Shown: positions 32-17,800 of the stretch, piece by piece | How positions within the stretch are numbered: position 1 is the first letter of the stretch | Layout of the letters: each line of letters begins with the position of its first letter | Program-made: the position numbers and the translations under genes | The notes under the pieces: generated by a model | Database searches by the model: none | What the model was told of the DNA's origin: nothing | Seen by the model: only the letters and a program-made list of their open reading frames with translations | Origin: a virus | Length of the DNA: 22,598 nucleotides | Virus record (IMG/VR): IMGVR_UViG_3300025669_000207 | Location: 1-22,598 of that record | Direction: 5' to 3' (one strand)

Positions 32-786
32 TACCATACCCTCAATGCTGAAAAGTACGTTGATGTTGCGCCAAGCACCGTGTCAAGCGTTCCGCCTGAA
101 GACTGGTACACACGGAGTTCGTAGTAGTCCAGAGCGGTCGCGCTGTCAGACTCGGTCACCCTAAGCACCGTCTGCTCCGTCGCGTGCGGGGCGAACTCTT
201 TTACCTCTGAAATCTTTGAGCCGTTTTTGTAGAGAGCCAACGTCCTGTATCCGGTTGCGTCTGCTACCAAGGTAACCTGACCAATGAAAAGATAAACGCC
301 AGTCGCGCCGGCAGGAATCGTCAGCCGGTTCGTGTTGCTGGCTACGCTGTGCATCGCGGTACGATCGTAGGACTCGGTATCAAACGTGAGCGCCGTGAGC
401 GTCGTGTTCGCAAGGGTCTGGGCTGCGGTGTCGGTAACCTTCGTGGCGTCCTGTCCAGTGGAAGAGAACGTGGACGTAGACGATACCGCAGCGGAGTGAA
501 CCACTGCTCCAGAGAATGTCCATGCGCCTGTGATCGTCTCGTCCTGTGCGAGAAACGCAGCGGCGGAAAGCACCGGAGTCGTAACGCTCTGCACACCGTC
601 GGGAGGATCATTAAACGCGTAGCTATCAGTCATTACGTCTTTAGCCAACTGAATCATGTTCAGACGAATGGAAGCGTTGACGTACGCCTCTATGCTTTCC
701 ACCATCGCGTTCAGTTCGGCCTGAGTAAGAGTTGTACCAGACGTATAACCCTCTGTTGCGTCCAATGCTGTAATTGAAGTTGCCAT
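31..786 (-). CDS. Tail-fibre-like protein with C-terminal C1q-like domain
   Basis: This 251-residue protein is rich in Ser, Thr and Ala. Residues 1-60 contain a short helical region (TQAELNAMVESIEAYVNASIRLN), and residues 60-125 look like a linker or shaft. About residues 130-251 resemble a C1q/TNF-like jelly roll: alternating beta strands, GVYLFIGQVTL, a YRTLALYKNGS hairpin, and a terminal YFSALRVW strand. Such domains commonly end phage fibres and trimerise. The ATG overlaps the stop of the nozzle-like gene by one base, with GAGGATAGGATA upstream. A role as a receptor-binding or short tail-fibre subunit is inferred from the fold pattern and the position at the tail end. It has no signal peptide, unlike the fibre genes at 4,439-9,369. 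Confidence 0.65.
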   Translation of the reverse strand: MATSITALDATEGYTSGTTLTQAELNAMVESIEAYVNASIRLNMIQLAKDVMTDSYAFNDPPDGVQSVTTPVLSAAAFLAQDETITGAWTFSGAVVHSAAVSSTSTFSSTGQDATKVTDTAAQTLANTTLTALTFDTESYDRTAMHSVASNTNRLTIPAGATGVYLFIGQVTLVADATGYRTLALYKNGSKISEVKEFAPHATEQTVLRVTESDSATALDYYELRVYQSSGGTLDTVLGATSTYFSALRVW

Positions 787-2348
787 TATCCTATCCTCGC
801 TCCCGTCTTACCTGCGTTCACTTCCACGTCAACCATGATGCCAAGCAGTTCGAAATCAACTGCGTCCTCTTGAAGTGTCTGTTCGTGCTCAATGAATAAC
901 TGATACGTCATTCCGTGTCCGCCAATTCTCTTTTTCAGAATCTTCATCTCTGGGATTCCACCCAGTATCGAAGCACCAAGAACGAAATCCTCTCCGAGTA
1001 AGTCCTGGTCAGAGGTGTCGGTCATGTCGAAGTCGAGATCGTTGACGACCCTTCCGTCTATTTTCATTTTCACGTTGAACGTTCCACTCGATTGCGGAAC
1101 AAATATCGGCGCTATATAATCGAACTCGAACTCCTCATCCAACGAGGTCGGGGAGATGATGCCACTGACGAATGTTACTGGTGGAATCTTCTCTCCATAA
1201 TCAGTAAAAACCTCGCTATCAATAACCCCAAGTCTTCCGTCCGGGCCACCAATGAGAGACTTCACCTTCTTCGTGCCGTAATCTATATATTTTGCTACCG
1301 AGGTAGCGTTGTAACTATGCCATTTGTACCACTTTTTTGCAACCAAAGAGTAGCCCCAGACGTCCGTCGGATAATTATACGACGACGCAGGGAACGTGAA
1401 CAGTAGCGATTGGAACTCCCGATCATAGTGTCCCCACATGTATTTCGCCCTGCGGAAGTTCACGTCCCCACGCCAGTCGTTTTGAATGTCGCGCGACAGC
1501 AAATCCGTCTCGATCTCAGAGACCTTATCAGATGACGAGAAGTAGTGGACCCCCTCGTCAGACGGGAAGAACATCGTCCCGCCGGCGGACACCACCGAGT
1601 TGTGGCTCACGCACCCGACGTTGTCGGATATCTTGGTTGGGACGAACTGCGTCCCGTAGGCCGTCTGCACGGGAGAAACCCGGTAGGTCGCGTACCGCTT
1701 CATCACATAGATCGATCCCCAGAACTGAGGGGTGATAGCCGTGATGCCGTCGGGGTCTCCGTCGTTGATGTCGAGGTCGATCGCGAACGCGTCCCTGGTC
1801 ACGAAGTCCGTAGGATCGTTTGTGACGCTCACCAGCAGGCGCCCCGGATAGTCAGGGTCTGGGATCCAGAGCCTGTTCCAGGCCACCTGCCCGAACTTCG
1901 CTACCTGCTCAGAAGAGGTCAGTGTGGCAACGCTGCCGGTCTGATTCCACGCCTGGATGGGGGTCGTCTCGTCCTGAAAAAAGACCGCGAGATACCCGTA
2001 GAACTTGGCGAAGGAGACAGCCTCGTCCAGAGGGATGGCCTGAGTGCCTGTGATGTTGTCAACGGCGTTGTCAGAGGGCCTCACAGCCTTCAGGAACTTG
2101 CCGTCATAGTAGACGACCCGCTGGGTGCCAAGCCTGTGGTAGTCAACCATCCCGAGGATCGGTCTCCCGTTCGGGGAGATGTCAAACGCGTCCGACTTCC
2201 CGGGGCGCTTCTTCTTCGTAGAGTAGGTCGTATAAATGACATTATCCGACCTGATGATATCCTTCGGGGATATCAGGAGAGGATGCTTGGTCGAATTCTG
2301 CGACCCGTCATACGGATAAAGCCTCTGCTGTAGTATTTTATCTGGCAT
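786..2348 (-). CDS. Tail nozzle / DNA-stabilisation-like beta-propeller protein
   Basis: This 520-residue protein lacks a signal peptide. It shows repeated beta-rich segments typical of short-tailed phage nozzle or stabilisation proteins (P22 gp10-like). An N-terminal part reads IIRSDNVIYTTYSTKKKRPG. A stretch GRLLVSVTNDPTDF, about residue 165, matches the usual 'value at position' strand of these propellers. About residues 255-290 hold VGCVSHNSVVSAGGTMFFPSDEGVHYFS, the most recognisable block. The C-terminal 150 residues look like separate beta domains. Its start overlaps the adaptor-like gene stop (TGATG), and it sits directly after that gene, as expected for the next ring of a podovirus tail. 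The family call is by pattern and context and I could not search a profile. Alternative: a generic virion structural protein. Confidence 0.65.
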   Translation of the reverse strand: MPDKILQQRLYPYDGSQNSTKHPLLISPKDIIRSDNVIYTTYSTKKKRPGKSDAFDISPNGRPILGMVDYHRLGTQRVVYYDGKFLKAVRPSDNAVDNITGTQAIPLDEAVSFAKFYGYLAVFFQDETTPIQAWNQTGSVATLTSSEQVAKFGQVAWNRLWIPDPDYPGRLLVSVTNDPTDFVTRDAFAIDLDINDGDPDGITAITPQFWGSIYVMKRYATYRVSPVQTAYGTQFVPTKISDNVGCVSHNSVVSAGGTMFFPSDEGVHYFSSSDKVSEIETDLLSRDIQNDWRGDVNFRRAKYMWGHYDREFQSLLFTFPASSYNYPTDVWGYSLVAKKWYKWHSYNATSVAKYIDYGTKKVKSLIGGPDGRLGVIDSEVFTDYGEKIPPVTFVSGIISPTSLDEEFEFDYIAPIFVPQSSGTFNVKMKIDGRVVNDLDFDMTDTSDQDLLGEDFVLGASILGGIPEMKILKKRIGGHGMTYQLFIEHEQTLQEDAVDFELLGIMVDVEVNAGKTGARIG

Positions 2349-3394
2349 CAGCTATCATACTCCAGTGCTCGCGCGGCCCTGAACATATCGTCACGGTTGT
2401 CGTAATCATGGACGCGTCGAAACCTGTTGGCGTTCACAACAAACTTTGGCTTAGGCTCGGTCTTCCGGTGCTCGTTCCTCATCTCCTTGAGCATCCCCAT
2501 CGCGTCCCGCAACTCCTTGTCGCTGGACGTTCCCTGCCCGTTAAGCTTGAACCATTCGTAGAGTGCGAAGTGGACGAGCATCCAGCGAGAGTCCATCGGG
2601 ATGATCGGCTCGTTAGCGTCCTCCGTCATTGGGGTGATGTTCATGCTGTAATCGAGGTGGATGAGCCGGCTCTTGTCCGGGGTGATCGGCAGAAGCCTGA
2701 TGCAGTCCACCTTGTCGGTGTCTGCGCCACCGAGGAAATCGTAGTCGAGGATCATGTCGTCGAGCAACTCGAGGGAGTTGTTCATATTGATCTTGCCGTC
2801 GATCGTGTAGAACGTCGGATAGGTGACCGTCGAAACGCTCGCCGCCAGCTTCCGGTTGAAATCCAGGGTTGAGAGATAGTCTACCTGGCCGTAATTGCGC
2901 GCGACGTCATCAACGATATATAGCTGTTTAACTGTATCGTAGTCAGGCGGCAGAGCGAACTCATACTCATATATTTTAAACGTAGCATCTGCATCAGAAG
3001 TGCCAAGGAATTCCCCCTCGAGGTAGAACTTGCCTGTGGCTACCTTGTACCCAATGATGCGGTACAGATCGCCAGAGCCGTTGAATCGAATGGATCTCCC
3101 GACGTATGCCTTGCTCACGGTGAGACCTGTCATCGTAATCTCACGGCTCTCGTCAACGATCGCTACCGACGACACGCCAGACTCAGACTCGACAGGGGTC
3201 TTAAAAGCAAACGTGCGATGAAAGGATCTCCACCACCAGTTGCGCTCAGTGCCAATGCGCATGTAATGCTCGTTGAGAAACCCCTTTACAAGCTCGCGGT
3301 CGACCGTCTCGACGGTTCCTTCGATGCGGCCACGAGACTCGACGATGGAGATCATATCTCCGAACGTTTTGCATTTAATCGATGGAACAGTCAT
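2348..3394 (-). CDS. Head-tail adaptor / connector-like structural protein
   Basis: This is a 348-residue soluble protein. The N-terminus is helical and aromatic (LNEHYMRIGTERNWWWRSFHRTFAF, about 39-63), as in phage adaptor proteins whose first helices pack on the portal. A beta-rich insert follows, about 75-145. A helical C-terminal part carries PIIPMDSRWMLVHFALYEWFKLNG (about 260-285) and a basic tail. The ATG has a strong ribosome binding site (GGGAGGGAAGG) and overlaps the preceding 70-aa gene by four bases (ATGA). Lying just before the nozzle-like gene supports a role joining portal and tail. It is much longer than P22 gp4, so the assignment to adaptor rather than another tail-completion protein is inferred. 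Confidence 0.55.
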   Translation of the reverse strand: MTVPSIKCKTFGDMISIVESRGRIEGTVETVDRELVKGFLNEHYMRIGTERNWWWRSFHRTFAFKTPVESESGVSSVAIVDESREITMTGLTVSKAYVGRSIRFNGSGDLYRIIGYKVATGKFYLEGEFLGTSDADATFKIYEYEFALPPDYDTVKQLYIVDDVARNYGQVDYLSTLDFNRKLAASVSTVTYPTFYTIDGKINMNNSLELLDDMILDYDFLGGADTDKVDCIRLLPITPDKSRLIHLDYSMNITPMTEDANEPIIPMDSRWMLVHFALYEWFKLNGQGTSSDKELRDAMGMLKEMRNEHRKTEPKPKFVVNANRFRRVHDYDNRDDMFRAARALEYDS

Positions 3395-3875: not shown

Positions 3876-4202
3876 CTACGTCTCATCTCCAAAAATGCTA
3901 AATGCAACCTTGGTATGACCAGCGTAAACCCATATAGAATCGCCGGCGTTGATCGTTATAAGCCCGCCATCAGTAACCTTGAGCGTTGTATTAGCGGCCA
4001 GCGCTGCGTCGTAATAGATAGCGTTCGCCGTGCCAGCCGTGTCTCCGTTCGGAACGACTTGAATCCTGAATGTAGTAGCAACCCCGTTCGAGTTACAAAC
4101 AAACATAGCCGAGACGGACGCAGTGTGCGTCGTCCCAACTTCGTATAGTTCAGTAGCTGTCGTCGCCGCTGGTGATGCCTGTTTGAAAAGTCTGTATGCC
4201 AT
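3876..4202 (-). CDS. Small beta-rich virion protein
   Basis: This 108-residue protein is almost wholly beta-strand in character. Key segments are ASVSAMFVCNSNGVATTFRIQVV, NAIYYDAALAANTTL and GLITINAGDSIWVYAGHTKVAFSIFGDE. The '-vcNsng-', 'iyyd', 'aGDsi.v' series is a layout seen in small phage virion proteins next to tail genes. The ATG overlaps the stop of the 75-aa gene by one base (TAATG), with GGAG eleven bases upstream. A role as a tail or head accessory subunit is inferred. There is no signal peptide. Confidence 0.65.
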   Translation of the reverse strand: MAYRLFKQASPAATTATELYEVGTTHTASVSAMFVCNSNGVATTFRIQVVPNGDTAGTANAIYYDAALAANTTLKVTDGGLITINAGDSIWVYAGHTKVAFSIFGDET

Positions 4203-4429
4203 TAGCTTTTAGGCTCCAACTCATGCAATGATTGCGGGCATGGCTCGAAATACATATGCACCTTTGTCTTCGGCTCGTAGCAGTTACACTGGCACGTTCC
4301 GTTAACTTCTTCATATGAAGACCGATCATAGTCGTTCCACCAACACTTGACCGCACACGCCATCCGGCCAAGGGCCAGCGAAACAACATCCCAAGGAAGA
4401 TAACCGCCTCTCATGCTTTCAATGTCCAC
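4202..4429 (-). CDS. Hypothetical 75-aa cysteine-containing protein
   Basis: GTG start at 4,427-4,429 with an excellent upstream site (AAGGAGGTAAC). The product has six cysteines: C25 and C29 in MACAVKC, a CxCxC cluster at 46-50, and C64. It also has aromatic residues (KCWWNDYD) and no signal peptide. The CxCxC cluster could bind a metal or form disulfides. It lies between the three-gene secreted cassette and the tail genes and is coupled to the following gene. No family is recognised. Confidence 0.6.
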   Translation of the reverse strand: MDIESMRGGYLPWDVVSLALGRMACAVKCWWNDYDRSSYEEVNGTCQCNCYEPKTKVHMYFEPCPQSLHELEPKS

Positions 4430-4438
4430 GTTACCTCC

Positions 4439-5233
4439 TTATGGAGTAGCAAGGAACTGCCCGCCGAAAGATGCGTTCTCATCACTAGTTGCTCCAGTGG
4501 GCTGTGTCCCGTCCTGATATATAGCCCCACCTATTGTATCAACTCCGTAAGAGTCGCACGTAGTAGACGATACCGCGTCACTTATCCGAACGTCTGTGTA
4601 TGTAGACCATATGCCTCTTTTGGTGGATGAAAAGTCGCACTGATATACGAAGTGATACCCACCACGCATCGGCTGATAACCAATACCGCCGTTGTTGAAC
4701 ACCATGTAATAAAGTTCAACGCCTTGGGTGTATATGGACTGGACGCCAACACCTAAATCTTCGTTGTTCTCCAACTCAATGCCTTGGAATATAATTATTG
4801 CCGAGTTGTTGCCTACATAAAATATTGGCTGGTCAGCGGTGGTGCCATCTAAGTTGTAATGCCCAGCGGTCGGGCGCGAACCGCTTTGTCCTTGGACAGT
4901 AATTCCACCATTGGCGAACCCAACAATCCTGATTGTTGTGGTGATTGTTATTGCCTCGTCAGCCAACTGGACAACGTACGTGTTGCCACCCAAATCCCTC
5001 GGCAGCTTGTTAATCGCGTACTGAATCGTATCGCACGCGCTTGCACCAGTTGCCGTCCCGCATCCCGGGTGGTCGGCTCCGCTGGTGTTATTCACATAAT
5101 GCGTAAACGTAGTTAGTGTTGGACGAGCCGCTGTTGTGGCCTCTCCGTTCTCAATCCCCGAGCCACCCAGCTGCACAGCAAACGCTGTTGACGAAAGTAA
5201 CATTGCAGCAATGATTGTTATGATTTTTTTCAT
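4439..5233 (-). CDS. Signal-peptide-bearing right-handed beta-helix protein
   Basis: This 264-residue protein begins with a clear Sec signal: MKK, a hydrophobic core at 4-14, and a cleavage site AFA|V after residue 19. The mature part opens with a pectate-lyase-like block (FTHYVNNTSGADHPGCG, then CDTIQYAINKLP). Short beta rungs follow (ITITTTIRIVGF, GGITVQGQSG, SAIIIFQGIELENN, VELYYMVFNNGG), as in single-stranded right-handed beta-helices of phage spikes and surface glycan-binding proteins. Cysteines at about 58 and 67 could pair outside the cytoplasm. The start overlaps the stop of the 1160-aa gene by one base, with AAGGAGCG upstream. It is the last of three consecutive genes with export signals. 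An exported or envelope-associated fibre or spike role is inferred; no catalytic residues can be named. Confidence 0.75.
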   Translation of the reverse strand: MKKIITIIAAMLLSSTAFAVQLGGSGIENGEATTAARPTLTTFTHYVNNTSGADHPGCGTATGASACDTIQYAINKLPRDLGGNTYVVQLADEAITITTTIRIVGFANGGITVQGQSGSRPTAGHYNLDGTTADQPIFYVGNNSAIIIFQGIELENNEDLGVGVQSIYTQGVELYYMVFNNGGIGYQPMRGGYHFVYQCDFSSTKRGIWSTYTDVRISDAVSSTTCDSYGVDTIGGAIYQDGTQPTGATSDENASFGGQFLATP

Positions 5234-8200
5234 TAGTTATCGCTCCTTGAGATTTCGTACCATGTGTCCTCGTCATCGTCCCATGTAATCATCAGGGTGT
5301 CACCTTTACCGAGAGTAAAATCAACACCACCAGCCAACTCGACGCCAAGACCATCTGTAATCAGCACGGTGTTCGTGTCGTGTGTGCCCTGAATAATGCA
5401 GGTCTGACTCTCGTTCTCGCCATCGTTAATCGCCGGGTCTGCGTCGAGGACGACCGCACCGCCATTACCAACGACACGCTCTACCTTGTCACCGCACGTT
5501 ATCGCACCGTCATCGGAAAGGGACTGGTCTGCGCCATCGCCAAAGTAGATGTGGTCGCCAATCGCAATCCACTCGTCTTGGTTCCCATCAGCGATAACCG
5601 TAACGGCACCATATGACTGAGTAATATATAGCTCGTCTGTGCCGTTCACTGTTTTTGAAGCTGGGACAATAGCGACTGGATATAAGTCAGCATCTCCGTC
5701 TTGGTCATAAACAACATACGTCCTACCATCAGTCAGGAGAGAGTCTGGAAATCCAATGTCCCTGTCTCCGCCAGTATCAATGGACGAGAGGTAGTACGAA
5801 AAAGCAGTAATCGTATAGTCTCCGCTCACAACGTCTTGGTCAAATGCGATACCGTCATCGAGGTTGATTGGAGCTGACGTAGCAGCGCCACCTATCGAGA
5901 CATACCCTGCATTTGTCACACCAATGTTGATGCCGCCAACAACAGCGCCACCTATGTTTCCACCAACGTCGATGTTGATTACACCAGTAGTGCCAGCTGC
6001 AGCGTCTGCAGTGGTGATATACATATCGTCATTAGCACCAACTGCCCCGATGCTCATCTCTCCTTCTGATGCCAGAGCATAATCTGCGGTGCCTTTATCA
6101 TAGAACGCATATGTCGTACCCGTTGTTGTCGTGTAATCCAAGTTTGAAGTGAACCCAGCAATCTTTGAATTAGCGTGAGATGCAGAACCCTCAGTTGCGT
6201 TAGCCATGAATGAAGTAACGACTGAGTCGGTTGCTAGGGCATAGTGAATCAGATTGCCGTTAACAACAAATGAATCGTCTGTGGCAGAAACGTACATATC
6301 AACATTCAATGCACCGATGTCATCTGTAACAGACTTGGTGCCGCTACCACCTGACGTGAGTTGAGCCATCGTCAATGTCTGAACTGCTGCATCAACCACC
6401 TGAAACGCAGTAGTTGGTGCAGCCGCAGTGCCAACTCCGAGATACCCTGCGTCGGTAAAGTAGAATAGGTCGTCAGTATGGTTGGTGATAACGTAGTCGT
6501 GGGTAGTCGCGTCGGACCTGAATAACCACGAATCGTTATTATCGTCACCTCCATCTGCGTCCAACATCATGATGGCGTTGCCATTCTGTATTGCCTGAAT
6601 ATGAAGCTGTTGCTCTGGAGTGCCAACACCGATACCAACGTTGCCTTGTACCGCAGCGGAAGCGTATGCAAGGATGACATCACCGTCTGCTCCACCATTC
6701 TTCAGCGCACCACCGTAGACATAAGCGTCTCCACCGTTACGCAACTCAGCGGCCGCCGCGTTTCCATCAGGAGCAACTAGGTACACATCTGTTCCATCGT
6801 TTCCGGGGAAAACGAGACCAGTAAGCAACAAGTCTCCACCGATAGAAGCGAAATCTATATCAAAATCAGCACCAATATGGGAAGACGAATACGCGATAGC
6901 GCCTTCACTCCCAGCGTTATCTACGTAGGTTGCAAGAAAGCTGGTCATGAATGTTCCAGCTGCGTCCGCTGCATCTGAAACTATAACCCCTTCAACGCCG
7001 GCGATTAGATTTCCAGTTGTAGTCAACCCCTCTGACTGAGCAGATGCGGTCACTGCTGCGTTGCCAGTGCTTCCGGTGTTCCCTGCATAGTAAGCAGCGA
7101 CATTAAAGCCAGATGTTGAACCAGCAGATGGTTGTGCTGCAGCGCCATGCTGAACATTAACAGTATCCACCGTCGGAGGGGCTGCAATGTCTTCGACCTC
7201 AAATGGATTGTCTGGTGTTGCATCTCCGATGGCAACGTACTGAGTATCATCAATCGCCATCGCCAACGCCAGCCCTGACCCGCTGTTGGTGTAAAACAAT
7301 ATCTCTGCGGGTAAGTGAGTGGCGCCAGCTATACCGTTCTGGTTTACCTGAATCACGCCACCAGTAGCCCTCTCGCTTGACGAGTTAACACCTTGGAATT
7401 GAATCAGCCCAAGGTAGTCACCGCTGTCTGTCTGTCCACTAGTGAGCGCACCAACAGCAGCGAGGTCAGCCTTGGATAATGTAAGTGAAGCAGCGTTTGT
7501 GTTGTTCACAGAAAACGACGAAACTTTCGAAACAACCGACCCGGCATCTGCTATCTCTTGGAGTGATGTTGGTGCATCAATCCCGATACCAACGCTTCCA
7601 CCCCACGTCGCTGACTCTTGGTTGTAGGTAAGGATGACATCACCAGCGACTCCGTTGGCTCCGCCGTTATTCTGGTCTCCTTTGAATCCACCTGCTAAGT
7701 ACAGGTTTCCACCGTCTCCGCCATCGGCTGCTGCACCAGCAGTACCACCTGGAGCACCGCCGCCAGCATATAAGTGCCACGCACCACCATCAGGCCCGGC
7801 ATTGGAAGCGGTAGCATCGCCGCCCTCAGCGCCAGCAAATATTGTATCGTATCCTGCCGTGTCGTCTTCCCCGCCGCTATGCGCAAAGCCCTTGGAGAAT
7901 GGACCATCAATTTCAATCGCGTAACTTTCAGCCGCTCCACCATCGGGGTCCCAGAAGATTGACATACCAAGGACGAAGGCATCAGCGTTGTCAGCAGCGT
8001 CACCAGCCATGTCGATTGCAAACGCAATCATCTCTTCGTCGGCACCGAGAGCACCAGCTATTGGGCCGATTCCAAGAACCATAGCGAGTTCATCAGCTAT
8101 CATCGTTGGAGCAAAGACTGCGTGGGCTGGCACTCCACCTGCGATAGCAGCCGCTGCGTTGGAACCCATCCCAAAAATGTCCCTATTGAATATGGACGTG

Positions 8201-8715
8201 GTCAGGCTGAGCGTTCCTACCTCAGTTCCACCAGCGTCAAAGCGCACTATATTCTCGTCGGCTGATTCCTCTGTCTGTACGAGTGTGTCCTTATCTGCGT
8301 CGTAGATAACCGACGTTTCCTTGACACAGACCGCGCCAATCATAATATAACCAGACGCACACGAATCGCAAAGATACCCTGAGTATCCAGTATTGCACTG
8401 ACAGTTCGGAGTGGTTGAAAAGTTTGCAGCGGCGGTGCTATTGCAATCAACGCCAACCGTATTGCCGGTTCCAGCGGTAACAGGTCCAGAGATGTTATCG
8501 TGGGATCCACTAACGCGCTGCGCCTCGCACTCGGTATCGGCTAAGAAAATATCAGTTCCAGCACCGACACCAGTCACGCAACCCTGATACGCAATATAGT
8601 TTGGTCTGCAATCATCAGTACCAACGTTCGTAACACACTGCGAAGAAACGTATGCCATTGCATTTGCAGACATCAGCAAGAAGGCAAGCGTTACGCCAGC
8701 GATAATCTTCTTCAT
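5233..8715 (-). CDS. Giant exported fibre/adhesin: signal peptide, EGF-like Cys module, fibre repeats
   Basis: The product is 1160 residues. Residues 1-21 are a Sec signal with cleavage AMA|Y. Residues 22-130 are Cys-rich, ending in a laminin/EGF-type module with cysteines at 91, 105, 107, 116, 119 and 130 (CQCNTGYSGYLCDSC). A DADKDTLVQTEESADE block at 139-154 opens the fibre shaft. The shaft is Ala/Gly/Asp-rich, with 'G.VGIG..TP...L' modules near 374, 493, 693, 758 and 938 and a duplicated Gly-rich segment (about 310-382 and 640-698, both with GDVIL.Y). No cysteine occurs between 131 and 1073. A beta-rich C-terminal cap ends TWYEISRSDN. VGIG modules are typical of trimeric phage tail fibres, while signal plus EGF module is typical of exported proteins. 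ATG follows GTAAGGAGACAAG. Role inferred: exported adhesin or fibre. Confidence 0.8.
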   Translation of the reverse strand: MKKIIAGVTLAFLLMSANAMAYVSSQCVTNVGTDDCRPNYIAYQGCVTGVGAGTDIFLADTECEAQRVSGSHDNISGPVTAGTGNTVGVDCNSTAAANFSTTPNCQCNTGYSGYLCDSCASGYIMIGAVCVKETSVIYDADKDTLVQTEESADENIVRFDAGGTEVGTLSLTTSIFNRDIFGMGSNAAAAIAGGVPAHAVFAPTMIADELAMVLGIGPIAGALGADEEMIAFAIDMAGDAADNADAFVLGMSIFWDPDGGAAESYAIEIDGPFSKGFAHSGGEDDTAGYDTIFAGAEGGDATASNAGPDGGAWHLYAGGGAPGGTAGAAADGGDGGNLYLAGGFKGDQNNGGANGVAGDVILTYNQESATWGGSVGIGIDAPTSLQEIADAGSVVSKVSSFSVNNTNAASLTLSKADLAAVGALTSGQTDSGDYLGLIQFQGVNSSSERATGGVIQVNQNGIAGATHLPAEILFYTNSGSGLALAMAIDDTQYVAIGDATPDNPFEVEDIAAPPTVDTVNVQHGAAAQPSAGSTSGFNVAAYYAGNTGSTGNAAVTASAQSEGLTTTGNLIAGVEGVIVSDAADAAGTFMTSFLATYVDNAGSEGAIAYSSSHIGADFDIDFASIGGDLLLTGLVFPGNDGTDVYLVAPDGNAAAAELRNGGDAYVYGGALKNGGADGDVILAYASAAVQGNVGIGVGTPEQQLHIQAIQNGNAIMMLDADGGDDNNDSWLFRSDATTHDYVITNHTDDLFYFTDAGYLGVGTAAAPTTAFQVVDAAVQTLTMAQLTSGGSGTKSVTDDIGALNVDMYVSATDDSFVVNGNLIHYALATDSVVTSFMANATEGSASHANSKIAGFTSNLDYTTTTGTTYAFYDKGTADYALASEGEMSIGAVGANDDMYITTADAAAGTTGVINIDVGGNIGGAVVGGINIGVTNAGYVSIGGAATSAPINLDDGIAFDQDVVSGDYTITAFSYYLSSIDTGGDRDIGFPDSLLTDGRTYVVYDQDGDADLYPVAIVPASKTVNGTDELYITQSYGAVTVIADGNQDEWIAIGDHIYFGDGADQSLSDDGAITCGDKVERVVGNGGAVVLDADPAINDGENESQTCIIQGTHDTNTVLITDGLGVELAGGVDFTLGKGDTLMITWDDDEDTWYEISRSDN

Positions 8716-8724
8716 CTTGTCTCC

Positions 8725-9369
8725 TTACTTGCAGCAAGCAAATGCCTTCTGCTCATTGCAAAATGTGATATATGATTCCAAGTCAGTGAGGTTCCAAAAC
8801 CTTGCGTACTGATCTCCGCCGTTGTCAGACCACCCGATGCAATCGTTGCACCCTTTGGTGGTGCTTGAAAAACCCGGCGCTCCACCGTTCACCCAATATC
8901 TTCCAGTACATGGCGCACAGTTAGTTCCAACCCACCCTTCGCCGGCACCAATCAACTCAAGCATCTCTTCGTTTGTGCAAACCCTAGCATCCACATTGCT
9001 CATATCGGTAGCGCAAAGTCCATTCGCGGTATCATAGTCTGTCTGGTCGCCGTCGTATGTGGCAGCCGCAGTAACTCCAAGGAAGTCAACTGACCCAACC
9101 GGAGTAACACCACCAGAGGTAATCTGAACCACGTCGCAATTGTCATTGATGTAATAGAGATCGACGTCTCCGGTAACCGCGTTATATTTCGTGTACACCT
9201 TCCCGCGATCAGCAATGCACGCGGGGTCAGCGGACTGTTTATAAAACGTCCTCGGACCGGAATCCAAAATCACATTTCCGCCCAAGACGTTTGGCTGCGT
9301 CGTGCCAGCAATCTGCGCAAACGCAGATGCAGGAATGAGCAGCATCAAAAGGATGAGTAGCTTCTTCAT
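8725..9369 (-). CDS. Signal-peptide-bearing cysteine-rich surface protein
   Basis: The product is 214 residues. Residues 1-18 form a Sec signal (MKKLLILLMLLIPASAFA|Q). Residues 25-85 look like a short fibre head (GKVYTKYNAVTGDVDLYYIN, VVQITSGG). Residues 95-214 form a Cys-rich domain with ARVCTNEEMLEL at 129-140, CAPC at 151-154, CNDCIGW at 174-180, and a terminal CNEQKAFACCK. There are eleven cysteines overall, which fits disulfides formed after export. The 'VCT.EE ... GW ... C..W ... ACC' spacing resembles small extracellular, possibly lectin-like domains in bacterial secreted proteins. That comparison is from memory of pattern, not a search. GAGGTAAGC precedes the ATG. It is first of the three-gene export cassette. 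Confidence 0.7.
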   Translation of the reverse strand: MKKLLILLMLLIPASAFAQIAGTTQPNVLGGNVILDSGPRTFYKQSADPACIADRGKVYTKYNAVTGDVDLYYINDNCDVVQITSGGVTPVGSVDFLGVTAAATYDGDQTDYDTANGLCATDMSNVDARVCTNEEMLELIGAGEGWVGTNCAPCTGRYWVNGGAPGFSSTTKGCNDCIGWSDNGGDQYARFWNLTDLESYITFCNEQKAFACCK

Positions 9370-9371
9370 GC

Positions 9372-9812
9372 TTACCTCGCAATCGAGTTGATGTCCGCGT
9401 AAAGTTTAAACGTTCCGGTCGGATCGGTTTGGGCCGTGGCCTCTTCCTGCTGGTACACCGTAAAATAACGTCTGCCGTTCGGCTGGACGGGAACGATGTG
9501 GCCCTCTGGAGTGGTCGATGAAGTCCACTGCCGGAGCAAATCCGCGGCCCGAAGCACGCCGCCACCGATCGACTCGAAGCCAAGCTCCATCGGGAACGGC
9601 TCTGAATCCTGAAGGTCGCGCGGAAAAGCGATATAAAGGTTCAACCCGGCCTCTGCACCCTTCGTGTAGTGGAGTTCCAGGTTGAACGTTTCCCCAGTCG
9701 CGTTCTCAATGATCCCGCAAACCTGAAGTTTGTCGGCAGAAACTTTCACATACTCTCCATCATGCAGAGTGATGAGCGGCTTCTTCACCATTTCAACTAA
9801 GTTGTGACGCAT
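9372..9812 (-). CDS. Hypothetical 146-aa virion-associated protein
   Basis: ATG start at 9,810-9,812 with a near-perfect ribosome site (AAGGAGG four bases upstream). The protein is soluble with mixed alpha and beta character and no signal: a basic N-terminus, beta strands (NLELHYTKGAEAGLNLYIAFP), then GGGVLRAADLLRQW and a terminal TFKLYADINSIAR. It follows a 77-base gap holding a palindrome and a possible terminator, so it may begin a separately transcribed or attenuated segment with the export cassette. No family is recognised. Confidence 0.6.
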   Translation of the reverse strand: MRHNLVEMVKKPLITLHDGEYVKVSADKLQVCGIIENATGETFNLELHYTKGAEAGLNLYIAFPRDLQDSEPFPMELGFESIGGGVLRAADLLRQWTSSTTPEGHIVPVQPNGRRYFTVYQQEEATAQTDPTGTFKLYADINSIAR

Positions 9813-9889: not shown

Positions 9890-10594
9890 TTATCGTTGCT
9901 GTGCCGCTTTGACATAATCAACATTGGCGGTTCTGGCGTCAGTGCTTCCTGCGCCTATGGCAATCGAAAGCCTTAACTCGGCGGTCGGGATATTGGTCGT
10001 GATCTCAGTCAACTTCGACCCGTCTTTCCAGAACTCGACCTTGCTTGTACCGATTACCTTGAACCCCAATGTGATGTAGGTATCTGCTTCAAAAGTCGCG
10101 GCAGAAGCCTCGATGCTTTCAACCGAGCCGGTTGAGCAGCCGCAGTTGATGCCCGTGCCGCCATCGTCCTTAACGAAATAGATGCCGTCGGAAACAGCGG
10201 CCATCGGGAGACCAGTATCAGTGTCGCACAGGCCAACGAGCCAATCCATATTCGTGGCTTCAGAAGCTTTGAACCGAGTTTCAAAGTAGATGTTCTTGCC
10301 GCCAGCGGGGAGGAAAGCCTCCGCGCCAAGCTGCATACCGAGAACGTCGTTCTCCGTAGCGGTGTTCGTCAGAAGAAGAACACCACCGACTTCGTCAGAC
10401 AGAGCTTCAGTCGCACCAGCATCGGTTTCCGTAACGGTCCAGTCGCCCGCAGCATACGTGAAAAAGTCATTCTCGTACCAAGCGAAGCCAGAGCCAGGTC
10501 CAAAGTCCACGCCTTCCCACATCGACTCGGGGATGGCGGGGACATTGTCTACAATCTTAATTCGATCATTATCGATCAACATTGGTTCAGTCAT
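9890..10594 (-). CDS. Concanavalin-like (LamG-type) jelly-roll virion protein
   Basis: The product is 234 residues with no signal peptide. After about 40 N-terminal residues comes a jelly-roll-like series: ENDFFTYAAGDWTVTETDAG, GGVLLLTNTATENDVLGMQLG, KNIYFETRFKASEATNMDWLVGLCDTD, GIYFVKDDG, YITLGFKVIGTSKVEFWKDGSKL, and LRLSIAIGAG. The 'W.v.....G......gG.l.l.t......d..' pattern is typical of concanavalin/laminin-G folds in phage virion proteins near the capsid gene. AGGAG lies six bases before the ATG. It probably decorates the head or forms part of a head fibre. Enzymatic activity is not indicated by any residue set I can identify. Confidence 0.7.
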   Translation of the reverse strand: MTEPMLIDNDRIKIVDNVPAIPESMWEGVDFGPGSGFAWYENDFFTYAAGDWTVTETDAGATEALSDEVGGVLLLTNTATENDVLGMQLGAEAFLPAGGKNIYFETRFKASEATNMDWLVGLCDTDTGLPMAAVSDGIYFVKDDGGTGINCGCSTGSVESIEASAATFEADTYITLGFKVIGTSKVEFWKDGSKLTEITTNIPTAELRLSIAIGAGSTDARTANVDYVKAAQQR

Positions 10595-10606: not shown

Positions 10607-11575
10607 TCAAGCTGGTGTTTGTGGTGCGCCAGCGTCCACATGTGTGAGCGGGCCAACAACCTGAATCTGGTCTGTAACTGTTGCGCAAACCGCCGTGGTA
10701 TTGGTCGAAGGATTGACTACCAAGAGATTGCCCTCAAGTAATCCAGAGACACTGTCGATCGCGTTATCAAGCGTTGCCGCTGAAGTGCTACCAACGAGAG
10801 CGCAGGTAAAAATTGGATTGACAACCAAGTTGCTAAACTGCAGCGCACTTGTATGCCCAACCAGCATGAACGCCTTATCAGAGTTCGAGCTTGAACAGGT
10901 AAACTGACAGTCACGCATCAGGAGATGCTTACACTTCGTTGTGCCACTGTTCAAAAACCTTACGGTTGCTCTTGCAGCCGCTTGAAGAACCGTGTCAGCA
11001 CCAAATTCGCAAGCAATGAACGTTGAACTGTCACCGCGTAATACTGCGTCTGAAACTGCAGCATCGCTAAGGTCAGACAACTTCATGAACGAACAGTTAA
11101 TGTACGTGTTCGCTTCGCCTGAATCAATGAGACATGCGAGCGAAGCTGCGTCGGTTCCTGTATTCACAAATTTCAAGTTCTCAAACGAGTTGCCCGTACC
11201 AGAGACTTCGATTGTAGAATCAACCGCTGCTGCGGTTCCCGTAGCAGTCGTTGCAATCCTTGCTCTCTGTGCATGGAACATTCCAGAGCCCAAGCCTACG
11301 ACATGGATTCTATTTTTGACCCATGTGATCTTGCTATCTTCTTGGATTTCTGAATCGCCGTCGATGAGGATGACATCATTGTTGTTCGACGTGCATTTTG
11401 CATAAGCTGCGCTCAACGTTTTGAGCGGCAAGGTCTTTGTCTTGCCATCGTTTCCGTCAAGGCCGTTACGATAGTCTACAAAGTAGACGTTGCCAAACAT
11501 AGCTGGAATACCGCCGCCGCCCATTACGGGCATACCGAAACTCGTCACACCATTTGGAAAATCAGTGAAACTCAT
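10607..11575 (-). CDS. Right-handed beta-helix virion protein (head-fibre/spike-like)
   Basis: The frame is open from 11,623, but the ATG at 11,573-11,575 has a perfect site (GGAGGTCTAT) and gives an N-terminus MSFTDFPNGVTSFGMPV typical of phage structural proteins following the capsid gene. The 322-residue product continues with VYFVDYRNGLDGNDG and PLKTLSAAYAKC. Beta-helix rungs follow: NDVILIDGDSEI, RIHVVGLGSG, NSFENLKFVNTG, NTYINCSFMKL, STFIACEFG, and LLMRDCQFTC. There is no signal peptide. It sits between capsid and concanavalin-like genes, behind a strong hairpin terminator, so it is probably made in smaller amounts than capsid. A head-fibre or spike role is inferred. Confidence 0.75.
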   Translation of the reverse strand: MSFTDFPNGVTSFGMPVMGGGGIPAMFGNVYFVDYRNGLDGNDGKTKTLPLKTLSAAYAKCTSNNNDVILIDGDSEIQEDSKITWVKNRIHVVGLGSGMFHAQRARIATTATGTAAAVDSTIEVSGTGNSFENLKFVNTGTDAASLACLIDSGEANTYINCSFMKLSDLSDAAVSDAVLRGDSSTFIACEFGADTVLQAAARATVRFLNSGTTKCKHLLMRDCQFTCSSSNSDKAFMLVGHTSALQFSNLVVNPIFTCALVGSTSAATLDNAIDSVSGLLEGNLLVVNPSTNTTAVCATVTDQIQVVGPLTHVDAGAPQTPA

Positions 11576-11599
11576 ATAGACCTCCGTATAGGGACATAA

Positions 11600-11628
11600 G
11601 AAAAATGCCGGGGGGATTTCCACCCCCC
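11600..11628 (-). terminator. Hairpin terminator downstream of major capsid gene
   Basis: On the minus strand six G pair with six C around TGGAAAT (bases 11,610-11,628), followed by GGCATTTTTCTT. This is a compact GC stem with a U tract, just after the capsid stop at 11,651. It would partially stop transcription before the beta-helix gene. Confidence 0.65.
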
Positions 11629-11650: not shown

Positions 11651-12568
11651 TTATGCTCCAGCGTTGCCAGCGACTCCGCGCCAGTTGCTGTACCCTTTGT
11701 CGTAACGACAGTTTGCCGTCAGTTCCCAAGCCAATGCCTTCTTGTCGTAATCTGAATCCGTCTCAAGCGCTTGACGCGTGAGGAACATAAGGTGATGTTC
11801 CATCTTCTCGGCAAACATGAACCAAGCGGTGTCACTCGACAGATAATTCCAGAAGCCGCCCGGAAGCAGTTTCAAGGAATCATACATCGTGTTGATCGCG
11901 TTGTTCGCATTCGTCGGATCGTACATCGACTTCACAATCTCTGCCGCGACATCTTGAAGCGCCTGCGGGACTACGAGGCTGGAAGGTTTGTACTTCACGA
12001 TCTGGCCGTTCTCGTTCACCATCGACTGCATCACGTTACGAAGAACGCGCGAGGAGGTGAGAGAAAGTTCAGCCGCCGCACCGATGTTCGTGCCAAGGAC
12101 GCCATCACCATTTTCGAGGGGATGGGAAGCCGAGAACAAAGCAACGCCGTCATAACCAGTTTCCGTGAAACCGTCATCGAGAACCGATGCCGCGTCGTAT
12201 TCTTTGATCTCAAAGTGACCCTTGCCAAAGGACCGCGTGGCGCGCTCAATGAAATTGAACTTGCCATCGTTGACTGATTCCTTCGAGATACGATATCCCG
12301 TCGCAAACGTTGCAGCCGTGTACGTCTTGCTGTACCCGGATTTGAGGGTCTGGAACTGGATCGGCGTATTCTCAGCCTTCTCGACCGGATTCTGCAGACC
12401 GGAAATCGTGGTGGTCTGATAGATGTCAGTTCCCATGGACTCTTCATTGAAGAGAATGGGAATCATCGAAGGATAAGACTCTTCGATTGCGAGGATTACG
12501 GCTTCCAGTTCAGGAAGTTTATCTTCTCCAAAAAAATCACCAAAATTAGACCTGACATTGGTAGCCAT
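11651..12568 (-). CDS. Major capsid protein (Mu gpT-like, HK97 fold)
   Basis: The product is 305 residues. Recognisable blocks of the Mu gpT-like capsid family are: ATGYRISKESVNDGKFNF (about 90-107); ATRSFGKGHFEIKEYDAASVLDDGF (110-135); YDGVALFSASHPLENGDG (138-156); KPSSLVVPQALQDVAAEIVKSMYDPTNANNAINTM (193-228); the C-terminal SSDTAWFMFAEK, CRYDKGYSNWRG and VAGNAGA. No long N-terminal delta domain is present, in agreement with a separate scaffold gene upstream. TAAGGAGGAAGA precedes the ATG. A strong hairpin terminator follows, which fits high expression. This is one of the best supported calls in the window. Confidence 0.88.
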   Translation of the reverse strand: MATNVRSNFGDFFGEDKLPELEAVILAIEESYPSMIPILFNEESMGTDIYQTTTISGLQNPVEKAENTPIQFQTLKSGYSKTYTAATFATGYRISKESVNDGKFNFIERATRSFGKGHFEIKEYDAASVLDDGFTETGYDGVALFSASHPLENGDGVLGTNIGAAAELSLTSSRVLRNVMQSMVNENGQIVKYKPSSLVVPQALQDVAAEIVKSMYDPTNANNAINTMYDSLKLLPGGFWNYLSSDTAWFMFAEKMEHHLMFLTRQALETDSDYDKKALAWELTANCRYDKGYSNWRGVAGNAGA

Positions 12569-14477: not shown

Positions 14478-14847
14478 CGCTGGCCTCCTTTTCGTTCTGT
14501 TTTTCCGCTATATAAAGCCTCTGAAGTAGGAGGCGACTATTCGCAACGTACTTCATCTGATAGTACCTTCCGTGGTTGAACGCCATCTTGCATCCATAGT
14601 CGTTCGTGTCGAGCAACTCCTCCGCCGGAAGTTTAAACGCCTCTCCCATTCGCTCGCCAATAAGCTGTGACTCAAGCTCCATGAACTTCTTGAAGTCCGG
14701 GTTCTCTCGCAGGTCAATCATCGCCTGTGCATACCCGCGCTCCGTATCGCTCATCTTGAATTTCACAGCGGTCTTCTTTTTCTTGAACGCGCTCTTCTGT
14801 TCTTCATCTACAATTTCCTTCATCCTATCCGCATAGGTACTACTCAC
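14452..14847 (-). CDS. Hypothetical 131-aa protein between portal and scaffold
   Basis: The frame opens at a GTG at 14,851-14,853, but the in-frame GTG at 14,845-14,847 is better spaced from GGAGG (five bases) and is preferred. It overlaps the portal stop by eight bases. The product is helical and highly charged: ADRMKEIVDEEQKSAFKKKKTAVKFKMSD, then RGYAQAMIDLRENPDFKKFMELESQLIGERMGEAF, YYQMKYVANSRLLLQRLYIAEKQ, and an acidic end. No signal or membrane span. Its position suggests a head-assembly partner of the portal or scaffold. No family is recognised. Confidence 0.65.
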   Translation of the reverse strand: MSSTYADRMKEIVDEEQKSAFKKKKTAVKFKMSDTERGYAQAMIDLRENPDFKKFMELESQLIGERMGEAFKLPAEELLDTNDYGCKMAFNHGRYYQMKYVANSRLLLQRLYIAEKQNEKEASDGEDQKGE

Positions 14848-17800
14848 TGTCACCTCCCTGTGGTGGGTTGATTACCGTTTGATCAGGCGAGCGCGGAACC
14901 TGCGCATCTTGCTGCGGAGGCGTCTGTCCGCCCTGCAACCCCATCGTTGGAGACTGCTGACTCCCTGTCGGGTTCTCCAAGTTGGACGGCTGCTGCTCGA
15001 CCTCGAAGTATTTCTTGTGCTGCTTTAAAACGTTCTTCAAAACAGACATCGCGTTCGGAGACACAATGCCGTGCTGAGCCTCAAGCTCCGCCGCCGGGGA
15101 ATCCAATATCTGCGAATACATCTCTATCTTCCCCTCGCGCTCTGGATCGTTCAACCCAACCGGAGGAGGAATGCCCTGCATGATCATGCGAAGCTCGTGC
15201 TCCATCGGAACCGAACCGTACCCGTCAGGCTTGGAAACAAATCGCTCCGCGCGCGCAGTGCCAAGCGTGCGGTGAACCTCCATCATAATCTCGTACACGT
15301 TCTGAGGTTTGATAACTCCCGTCTGAATCGGTAACGGCTGGAATGAAAACTGCGCCATCTCCATCGCGTTCTGCTTCTCGATATCCTTGTTCAAGTTGCT
15401 GCCGTTCGCGTAAATACCGAAGTGAACCCTTCGGGCCAACTCGTCGCGCGAAATATCCATCTTGATCGGCTTCCCGTCTTCGTCGATCATCGGAACGCCA
15501 TACGCGCCAGTCACGCTGATCTTCAACTTCGGCGGCATCATCACCGTGCAATCGCTGTATAACCCTTCAAACAATTCCGACATGCAACTCTTCACGCGCT
15601 GAAACCAAACGTCGTGCAACATATTAGCATTCTGACCAAGTGCTTGCACGCCACTCGTTGAACGCAGCGGTCCCACGTTCTGTCCAACTTGTCCAACCGT
15701 TGTCGGCCCAATCGCGGTCATGCGCTCGGCCATCGATATAATGCCACCCTGGATCGCCTGCGACCACGACGGGTTCACGTTCCAACTGAAGAAGTTGATG
15801 TCCGCTTTCGGATCCTCCATCTTGATGCCCAGCCCCGGTTCCACTCTCACCTCTTGTGGGTCCCATGTGGAGTCTCCTTTAAAACCAAACATCGGGTTGT
15901 TCGCCAACGTGCCGGCATCAATCGACTGGTTCACCAACACGTCCAACGAATCGTTCAAGTTGAACATCGTCTGCACCATGCCTCGCCCAATAGACCGTCT
16001 CGGCCTGCGGAACAGATGACACATATGCAACGGGATCTTTCCGTTGGATGAAATCCTATCCAGGTACGTCCAACGCATGAGCGTATTTGTATTCGGATTG
16101 ATGATGTATTGAAGTCTGTCAGGTACTGAGAAGTTGTCTTCACCGTTCAATGAACAACTGTCGTACACCACGAGACACTCGTACGTGTCGCCGCCAGACG
16201 TAGACGTCGTGTTGATACCAGTCTGGAAATCTTCAGCAGCACGTCGCGTGTTGAGATAAGCCTGCGCACTAGACGTCGCCTTGTTCACACCGCCACTCTC
16301 AAGCACCACGTTCACAGCGTCTGAATCCATATACTCGCTGTCGCGAAAACGGATCAACTGCTCTTTCGAAAAATAACAAACCTTGATAACGGTTTCATGC
16401 TCGTTCAGATCCGTGCAGTCTACTACGTCTCCCTTGAATAAAACGAACGCAGGATCTTCAGCAACAACCGTCGGTCCATTAAACACAGTGCGAATAATGC
16501 TCTGTTCACGATAAGGCTCCTTGATAAACTCACGCGCCATCTTGTCGAACTCTTCCTCCGGCGTGTCTTCAAACATTTTCTGAAAGTCGAAGTTCTGATT
16601 GTCAAACTTCTCGTTTCGCACGATGTCGCGAAACCTATGCTGAACCACTTCCCAACCGCGACTGAAAATTGCAACGCCGTCGCGCGTGAGATCCGTAGCC
16701 CAATCGTCAACCGCTAAATAAATACCCTTGTGATAATTCGCGTACCGCTCGAGCACGTACTTCATAAACCGCTCGATCTTCTCCACCCTCTCGACATCGA
16801 TGTCCTCCTCTTGAGGATCAATGTAAAACCATGGATGACGAAAGAAAACAGCCTGCATGATTAAAGCGTGCAGGGCGTTACACTGAATCTCTGTAAGTGG
16901 AAAATGCAAATTGGACTGCCCAATAAACAAAGGCTTGCCGTTCTGTCTGGCATAAACGACTCCCCATTCATTTGTTACGCAAAAGTTTTTGCCAGTGTAA
17001 CCCGTTCGCTCAATCTTCGTTGTCGTTAGATCCGTTACTTTTGCGTGCCGCTCCGAAACAATATAAAATGGCTTCCCTTGCTGCGTTTCCGTTTCATATG
17101 CAATTCCCCAAACGCCAACTTTTGCCATAACCTCTTGTACGTCGCTCGCTAATCGCTTTGATGAAGTGGCATAACTCCTATGCTTTGACTTTCTACACTT
17201 CGTTCCGTCGCCAAGCATCATCGCTTCGTACATGACTTTCAAATACGCAGACGGAGCGTTCAATAATGGTCTAGGGATAACTCGCTCTGGTTGTAGCCCA
17301 CAAGAAGCAAATGCCGTCCTCCACCTCGTATCGATGCTTATTCTGAAATAGTTACCGCTTCGCCCCTTGCTATATTTAAATGGAAGTCTCTTTAATAACT
17401 CTTCAATTTTCTTGTAGTTTTCTGGTTTTGCGGACTTCGATTGAGAAATTTCGATCTGTGAATGACAACACTTGCACGCGCATCCCTCAGATAAATACCA
17501 GCCCCACAACTCAAACCAATCAAACGGGTCAACATTCTCAGGCATCAATGGGAGAGTACCTTCACTGTAAATACCGTTCCTCGGTATACCCCAATGCCTA
17601 ACCTTCTTTCCAACCATATCCTTAGCTTCAACAAACTTATGTCTGTTCTTATATGCGCCACCACGCTCATCGACTAAGTACATCCTGTGGATATCGGTCA
17701 CTGTTATGTCTAAACCACAACGCTTGTTGTGAAAATGGACAGCGTTATTACAATGTCCGAAACCCATTACAGCTTTAACCGGAATAAAGCCAAGCTCTCC

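Follow-up and report, generated by a model that had tools for sequence, protein, structure and literature searches.

The locus and its genes

The window, that is the whole stretch of DNA analysed, is 22,598 nt of the record IMGVR_UViG_3300025669_000207, and this ~22.6 kb is what is known of the phage. Three consecutive minus-strand ORFs encode proteins of 214, 1160 and 264 amino acids. They form a cassette tightly coupled within a late operon (intergenic gaps of 2, 9, -1 and 9 nt), and promoter- and terminator-like motifs around it occur at chance level, with no excess. The main features, from the capsid gene downstream, are listed below; L237 is the closest informative relative, a syntenic contig whose capsid protein is 75% identical.

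11651..12568, minus strand: major capsid protein (phrog_371 major head protein, E=1.4e-15)
10607..11623, minus strand: 338-aa beta-helix/tail-fibre-type slot protein without a signal peptide (phrog_32409 tail fiber, E=7e-6)
9890..10594, minus strand: 234-aa protein of the slot, conserved in the capsid family
9372..9812, minus strand: signal-less 146-aa slot protein that precedes the cassette (L237 counterpart 56% identical)
8725..9369, minus strand: 214-aa protein, predicted to be exported (signal peptide, aa 1-18; N-terminal module, aa 19-91; Cys-rich distal part)
9316..9369, minus strand: signal peptide of the 214-aa protein, MKKLLILLMLLIPASAFA followed by Q (score 14.2; kept in L237, score 15.8)
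5233..8715, minus strand: 1160-aa fibre-like protein, predicted to be exported, with internal repeats, GIG-type motifs and a C-terminal trimeric-fibre-like segment
8653..8715, minus strand: signal peptide of the 1160-aa protein, MKKIIAGVTLAFLLMSANAMA followed by Y (score 14.8)
8326..8637, minus strand: Cys-rich EGF/laminin-like N-terminal region of the 1160-aa protein (aa 27-130, 10 Cys; Pfam EGF_laminin sub-threshold)
5233..5536, minus strand: C-terminal ~100 aa of the 1160-aa protein, resembling a tail-fibre C-terminus (weak podovirus tail fibre and Phage_depo_C matches)
4439..5233, minus strand: 264-aa protein, predicted to be exported, with a probable right-handed beta-helix start motif (weak phrog_4577 match)
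5177..5233, minus strand: signal peptide of the 264-aa protein, MKKIITIIAAMLLSSTAFA followed by V (score 11.2)
2348..3394, minus strand: probable gp4-like tail adaptor, across the slot from the capsid gene
786..2348, minus strand: gp10/stabilisation-type tail protein (phrog_3287 virion structural protein, 6e-9; phrog_578 head closure Hc3, 2e-5)

The product of 2348..3394 has no library match, and its probable identity as the adaptor comes from its position and its resemblance to a 311-aa protein that MW202601 has in the corresponding position. The 338-aa slot protein is 53% identical in L237 and 89% identical in L004; the 234-aa protein is 62% identical in L237, ~40% in L013 and L243, and 30% in MW202601. 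In relatives that lack signal peptides the same slot is filled by fibre or decoration genes, whose products are presumed virion proteins. By sequence, the cassette is shown to occupy a variable fibre slot that lies between the capsid and tail-adaptor genes. A 251-aa tail-type protein at 31-786, without a signal peptide, is a candidate alternative receptor-binding protein.

Signal peptides

N-termini were scored with a weight matrix of the von Heijne type. In its calibration set of 86 annotated E. coli K-12 genes, OmpA scores 17.0 and false positives (cytosolic and inner-membrane proteins) reach at most 6. The three products score 14.2 (AFA-QI), 14.8 (AMA-YV) and 11.2 (AFA-VQ; hyphens mark the cleavage site). 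Each has an h-region with a mean hydropathy of ~2.5 or above, an n-region net charge of +2 and no charged residue from the h-region to the cleavage site, and none has a lipobox there. Sec substrates favour mature chains that start without net positive charge, and the first 18 mature residues carry a net charge of -1 in each of the three proteins. No other ORF on either strand of the window (ATG start, ≥60 aa) has a strict signal peptide. The earlier note's observation of three consecutive late genes with Sec signal peptides thus holds: textbook Sec/signal-peptidase-I signal peptides are confirmed on all three products, and their export is predicted.

Among 127 loci of the same capsid family, which have 1452 sense-strand ORFs of ≥100 aa, 5 ORFs are signal-peptide-positive (one of them in L237), against 3 of 19 ORFs in this window (binomial, ~4e-5). 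Signal peptides are not general in this family, since strict ones on ORFs of ≥100 aa were found at only 3 of 80 surveyed loci. The predictor errs on the side of caution and overlooks some true-looking signals; a 918-aa C1q-type protein of MW202898 has a signal-peptide-like sequence at an internal start (MFNKILIAIVFIITCLNAFS followed by D), yet scores 4.2. The pattern scan is biased towards MKK...AFA-Q, and its counts are to be read as "at least" values, not as frequencies.

Integrity of the block and closest relatives

A separately assembled contig, L002 (IMGVR_UViG_3300023297_000135), is 99.94% identical over 17.9 kb and carries the whole block, which is therefore not chimeric. A fusion of host and phage DNA or an annotation error, for which the metagenomic origin of the record might speak, is accordingly very improbable: the frames are coupled in one operon and L237 is syntenic, and together with L002 this relative refutes a chimera. 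The earlier note had suggested a search for the block in related contigs. It is whole in L002, whereas in the same slot of L237 only the signal peptide and the ~75-aa N-terminal module of the 214-aa protein are kept (47% identity, 2e-15), and the distal fibre is unrelated. A retained N-terminal module with an exchanged distal part is the modular pattern of receptor-binding proteins. Homologs of the 1160- and 264-aa proteins were not found beyond near-identical contigs. A tblastn search of 50,697 phage records with the three proteins, in full and as sub-segments, gave no match, and scans of genome contigs for relatives or a host found nothing.

Predicted structure of the mature proteins

Fibre, beta-helix and Cys-rich bodies had been proposed for the three proteins, and their sequence features agree with this, but the library matches are sub-threshold. 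The N-terminal region of the 1160-aa protein matches Pfam EGF_laminin at E=0.003 (18.1 bits, under the cut-off of 21), and its C-terminus matches a Manatee Spring podovirus tail fibre weakly (34% identity, E=0.07) and Phage_depo_C at a sub-threshold 16 bits. The 264-aa protein has a weak match to the phrog_4577 tail protein (E=0.013), and the mature 214-aa protein contains 11 Cys. NCBIfam searches with the cassette proteins gave no matches and PDB sequence searches gave matches at chance level only. For the 264- and 214-aa proteins, AlphaFold gave models with pLDDT values of 31 and 36, unusable for a fold search. No autotransporter C-terminal barrel or other outer-membrane anchor was recognised in the three proteins with Pfam or NCBIfam.

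Recurrence in other phages

The earlier note's description of a whole exported fibre-type cassette within a structural operon is well supported, and the design recurs in L237, in the T7-like phages G001, G002 and L203, in the podovirus G005 and in the tailed-phage contigs L127 and L111. The T7-like phages are unrelated to the present one and have two to five signal-peptide genes between their capsid and tail-adaptor genes. The signal peptide of their ~212-aa exported protein is present in each of the 17 full homologs, 16 of which satisfy every strict criterion (L227 lacks the n-region charge); under random change, the chance of retention would be 3-20% per divergent lineage. A distant homolog in L229, which has no signal peptide and does not lie beside a T7-like capsid gene, was left out of the paired comparison. 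An exported slot protein of L111 matches a fibre/spike family well (phrog_4636, 2e-29).

G001 (50 kb, 182-bp overlapping ends) is apparently complete and has five signal-peptide genes in the slot. Its sole tailspike-family protein (phrog_4250, 1.5e-12; PF12708, 1.2e-8) bears a signal peptide, and no spike without one is recognisable. The PF03906 anchor, which is present at the corresponding spike position in the cultured homologs VSW-3 and KM02, is found nowhere in G001 and is likewise absent from L002, L237, G002 and L203. Cys makes up 1.41% of the mature exported proteins and 0.50% of neighbouring virion proteins (p=3.5e-4), and Cys counts in the exported proteins are even in 13 of 16. Exported enzymes also occur in related contexts, namely a GDSL esterase (L216) and a CARDB-pectate lyase (L063), neither of which needs a virion. 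Recurrence in unrelated uncultured phages suggests that some phages route fibre proteins through the host secretion channel and not through cytoplasmic folding.

Interpretation

The signal peptides, the intact block in a second contig, retention in a relative, the slot position and the recurrence are shown at the level of sequence. The reading we prefer, with a probability of roughly 0.45, is that the cassette encodes late fibre/adhesin-family proteins that are Sec-exported, fold in the periplasm and most likely become virion-attached fibres after lysis. The host Sec system would export the three products and their signal peptides would be cleaved. The mature proteins would take up their fold in the periplasm, a compartment that permits disulfide bonds, and would build up until lysis, when they would meet virions assembled in the cytoplasm. 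Attached as fibres, they would most likely bind receptors or attack surface polymers. The docking part would be the N-terminal module common to the 214-aa protein and its counterpart in L237, and the distal parts would be exchangeable. More tentatively, the route may be a split one, in which capsid and tail are made in the cytoplasm and fibres pass through Sec, undergo oxidative folding in the periplasm and dock on the virion only at lysis, the signal peptide replacing the classical anchor; this phage and the T7-like phages would then be independent inventions.

A close rival, though doubtful, is that the proteins are exported late, released by lysis and never bound to a virion. Near the lysing cell they would serve in free form as adhesins, depolymerases or decoys for receptors, for example to loosen extracellular polymer or to occupy receptors on debris. 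In G001 the exported spike lacks a T7-like anchor, which suits a protein secreted in free form better than one built into the virion; its signal peptide stands where cultured homologs have the virion anchor. The exported esterase and pectate lyase point the same way, and Cys-rich or EGF-like bodies suit extracellular function. Free secretion would, however, leave G001 without any recognisable receptor-binding protein. In relatives without signal peptides, the proteins of the slot are presumed to be decoration or fibre proteins of the virion, and the conserved N-terminal module with its variable tip suggests a docking partner.

The earlier note had also proposed a coat of adhesins displayed on the infected host, blocking superinfection or altering attachment. 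The signal peptides of the three proteins speak for it, and lambda Lom and Bor are phage precedents. So are the Q-rule proteins of Porphyromonas gingivalis phages (PMC10367356). Such a coat is nevertheless disfavoured and unlikely: no lipobox, membrane anchor or autotransporter domain is recognisable, no moron-like promoter or terminator of the cassette's own stands out, and the coupling of the genes to the late virion operon places them too late for classical exclusion. Bor-type lipoproteins were rejected for want of a lipobox at the cleavage sites, and a moron cassette on account of the short gaps and chance-level motifs. An autotransporter adhesin is not supported either, as Pfam and NCBIfam gave no match to a barrel anchor. 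It is more improbable still that the N-terminal segments escape Sec processing and are retained as hydrophobic virion anchors or membrane-insertion tips. Retention would suit the fibre-like bodies and an assembly route that needs no export, but the n-h-c architecture with an AxA site occurs three times independently, each time with no charge ahead of the cleavage site, the cleavage motif is conserved in L237 and the T7-like homologs, and the exported proteins are enriched in Cys.

If the preferred reading is true, the recurrent Sec-exported slot would mean a two-compartment assembly of receptor-binding proteins; the other outcome is a late secretome of the phage with a role outside the cell. 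Either has consequences for host range and for the evolution of disulfide-rich receptor binders in phages, and in metagenome annotation a signal peptide would mark spikes of this type.

Comparison with known systems

Tailed-phage morphogenesis is by textbook cytoplasmic. The T7-like tailspikes of VSW-3 and KM02 resemble the proteins described here in being fibre or spike bodies encoded in late virion operons, and they share PF12708 with the exported spike of G001, but they fold in the cytoplasm and have PF03906 where a signal peptide is found here. The exported genes lie between the capsid and tail-adaptor genes, whereas cultured T7-like spike genes follow the internal core gene. Known depolymerases are mostly part of the virion, and their free copies arise as by-products of translation or lysis; dedicated Sec export is not known as a defining feature of them; pectate-lyase-type folds and exported esterases nonetheless occur in the same class of loci, as among secreted or soluble phage depolymerases.

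The view of exported proteins as exceptional for phages is only partly right, since signal-peptide phage proteins are known and clusters of this kind are not rare in IMG/VR. The temperate phage lambda encodes lysogenic-conversion envelope proteins with Sec signals, such as Lom, an outer-membrane barrel whose gene sits among the tail-fibre genes, and Bor, a lipoprotein; unlike these, the cassette is a multi-gene set of large soluble fibre-like proteins without a lipobox, coupled to capsid genes. The P. gingivalis phages also encode proteins with SPI signal peptides (the "Q-rule" proteins), proposed users of host general secretion (PMC10367356). Those are unknown proteins of temperate phages, whereas the present ones are of fibre or spike type in a capsid-adaptor slot, and one of the three follows the Q rule.

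Organization of the late genes

The window, a 22.6-kb virus record, comes from a tailed phage with all of its late genes on the minus strand.

Late genes of the window, in order
Minus strand: small terminase (phrog_2538)
Minus strand: large terminase, terL (phrog_2), interrupted by an apparent intein
Minus strand: portal (phrog_1216), interrupted by an apparent intein
Minus strand: probable scaffold
Minus strand: major capsid protein (phrog_371, 1e-15)
Variable slot of about 8 kb after the major capsid protein, holding the three cassette genes:
9369-8725, minus strand: 214-aa protein
8715-5233, minus strand: 1160-aa protein
5233-4439, minus strand: 264-aa protein
3394-2348, minus strand: probable tail adaptor, 348 aa, assigned from its position
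Minus strand: gp10/stabilisation-type protein, 520 aa

The intein-like insertions in terL and portal (18106-20658 and 14840-18109) have a C-start and ...VHNC and ...IGQSN junctions; the portal of contig L004 is uninterrupted. An extra ORF of about 360 bp with an HExxH-like motif (ALHEILHL) lies between terL and portal in two near-identical contigs (L002:130-490 and L001:871-1231) and is absent from the window (18106-18111). Directly after the cassette is a 75-aa ORF (4202-4429) with 6 Cys (8%) and no signal peptide.

Intergenic gaps in the cassette region are 2, 9, -1 and 9 nt, and promoter-like and terminator-like motifs there show no excess over chance. From these gaps and motif counts we infer that the cassette genes are expressed late, share transcription with virion genes and are probably coupled to them in translation. 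The objection that the block is a chimeric assembly fails, since the near-identical contig L002, which aligns to the window at 99.94% over 17.9 kb with 11 mismatches, has the complete block; L001 includes part of it. Judged by these alignments, the block is not a chimera.

Signal peptides and cysteine content

A reconstructed von Heijne-type weight matrix for prokaryotes was used to score N-termini, together with hydropathy of the h-region, charge of the n-region and a check that no charge precedes the cleavage site; 86 annotated genes of E. coli K-12 served for calibration. The earlier note had proposed Sec signal peptides on three consecutive late gene products, and prediction bears this out: the 214-, 1160- and 264-aa proteins score 14.2, 14.8 and 11.2 (OmpA, 17.0), above false positives (≤6). 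No further ATG ORF in the window is a strict hit, none of the three has a lipobox, and all three mature N-termini have a net charge of -1. The strict pass rate is 3/19 in the window; across 127 loci of this capsid family it is 5/1452, counted over sense ORFs of 100 aa or longer (P ~4e-5). As predicted from sequence, these signal peptides are real.

Cysteine content is evidence separate from the signal-peptide score. In the window, L237, G001, G002, L203 and G005, mature exported slot proteins contain 1.41% Cys, against a figure of 0.50% for virion proteins from those phages (Mann-Whitney p=3.5e-4); 13/16 of the exported proteins have an even Cys number. Ten Cys of the 1160-aa protein lie within residues 27-130, and this protein matches EGF/laminin weakly. 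This enrichment is a prediction of disulfide folding outside the cytoplasm.

Relatives in the same capsid family

The closest non-identical capsid is that of L004 (91%), whose contig stops short of the exported genes. In L237 (capsid 75%) the genes follow the order seen in the window: products of 333 aa (53%), 233 aa (62%) and 155 aa (56%) precede a signal-peptide ORF (score 15.8, AFA|Q) that runs for at least 779 aa before the contig breaks off. This signal peptide and about 75 further residues match the 214-aa protein (47%, 2e-15). Beyond this module there is no kinship: the window protein continues as a Cys-rich tip of 120 residues, that of L237 as a long repetitive fibre. A search of related contigs thus recovers the block complete in L002 and, in L237, its signal peptide and N-terminal module with an unrelated distal part. 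Receptor-binding proteins usually have a kept N-terminal module and an exchangeable distal part, a layout that the pattern seen here appears to follow. In farther members of the capsid family, the fibre or decoration proteins of the same slot lack signal peptides. One contig of the family encodes a signal-peptide CARDB-pectate lyase (L063:17521-18912; PF00544 2e-12, PF07705 2e-9), likely a secreted enzyme.

Recurrence in other phages

A scan for MKK...AFA|Q, biased by construction, found at least 120 phage stretches; among the matches listed are 22 clusters of at least two signal-peptide ORFs, eight of them with at least three. Several of the listed clusters lie in hallmark structural contexts (L101/G005, L127, L111, T7-like L094, L139 and L203). 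In L101/G005 a stabilisation-type gene (called by resemblance, with no PHROGs match) is followed by three signal-peptide ORFs in a row, L127 has several such ORFs downstream of portal and capsid-type genes, and L111 encodes a fibre of 1392 aa that matches phrog_4636 (tail spike, 2e-29). Glycosyltransferase-like genes, identified by eye, share structural operons with exported fibre genes (L127:1684-3741 and L111:7120-7857).

A homologue search in the T7-like group gave 19 loci. The signal peptide of a ~212-aa gene is kept in 17/17 full-length homologues, 16 of which pass all strict criteria (L227 lacks n-region charge), and further, different signal-peptide genes follow up to a gp11-like adaptor (phrog_394). 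If codons changed at random until the observed divergence was reached, a strict signal peptide would survive in only 3-20% of cases per divergent lineage, the lineages being not fully independent.

Other signal-peptide genes were also seen. A T7-like phage has a GDSL/SGNH esterase gene immediately upstream of terL (L216:947-2512), and in a Manatee Spring podovirus (MW202898; L092:14191-16944) the 918-aa protein annotated as 'caprin-2 domain protein' probably has an internal start that gives it a signal peptide (MFNKILIAIVFIITCLNAFS|D). The protein at L152:2414-4135 combines an export signal with a spike hallmark, a C-terminal Peptidase_S74 intramolecular chaperone domain (4e-10). A ~145-aa protein (MKK...AFAQ...GVTYDAxxxRVxDGDT) recurs in L138, L144, L154 and roughly twelve further loci of the pattern scan; its RVxDGDTV motif recalls thermonuclease-like proteins.

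Possible roles of the exported proteins

G001, a T7-like contig of 50,001 bp, is essentially complete, because its ends overlap by 182 bp at 97.8%. Five signal-peptide proteins, of 213, 146, 406, 282 and 450 aa, are encoded in the stretch that separates its capsid gene from the gp11-like gene. The last is the only protein of G001 with spike or fibre matches (phrog_4250 EPS depolymerase, 1.5e-12; PF12708, 1.2e-8), and the profile match sets in past the first ~150 positions. Homologues of this protein from the cultured phages VSW-3 (Pseudomonas) and KM02 (Escherichia) have the T7 tail-fibre anchor PF03906 ahead of the spike domain, whereas no PF03906 was found anywhere in G001; the signal peptide thus occupies the place expected for the anchor. 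These features suggest that the known way of holding a spike on the virion does not apply to that of G001, and that this phage has no other recognisable receptor-binding protein. The missing anchor cuts both ways.

Signal peptides, operon position, slot, retention and recurrence are all seen at the level of predicted genes and proteins. Beyond these, the cassette proteins would be exported by Sec and cleaved, fold oxidatively in the periplasm, accumulate there (no outer-membrane anchor was found) and be released at lysis alongside virions. They may then dock on the virions, to which we give a probability of roughly 45%. Docking is narrowly preferred to free secretion on two grounds: G001 would otherwise be left with no receptor-binding protein, and the N-terminus is modular. 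That the proteins act free after secretion is a close, somewhat less probable alternative. An adhesin coat on the host that blocks superinfection, as the earlier note had suggested, is unlikely, given late expression and the lack of an anchor.

Comparison with known systems

P22 tailspikes can join otherwise finished particles outside cells, and Lom and Bor of lambda are the classical phage signal-peptide proteins. A review (PMC9576892) documents the folding of P22 tailspikes only. Signal-peptide proteins are described in P. gingivalis phages (PMC10367356) and counted in rumen Bacteroides phages (PMC5723332). Among the open-access papers searched, none describes Sec-exported fibre or spike genes recurring in a slot between capsid and adaptor. 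Phage proteins with signal peptides are therefore already known; the recurrent exported fibre/spike slot between capsid and adaptor is apparently new, and its proposed mechanism is testable.
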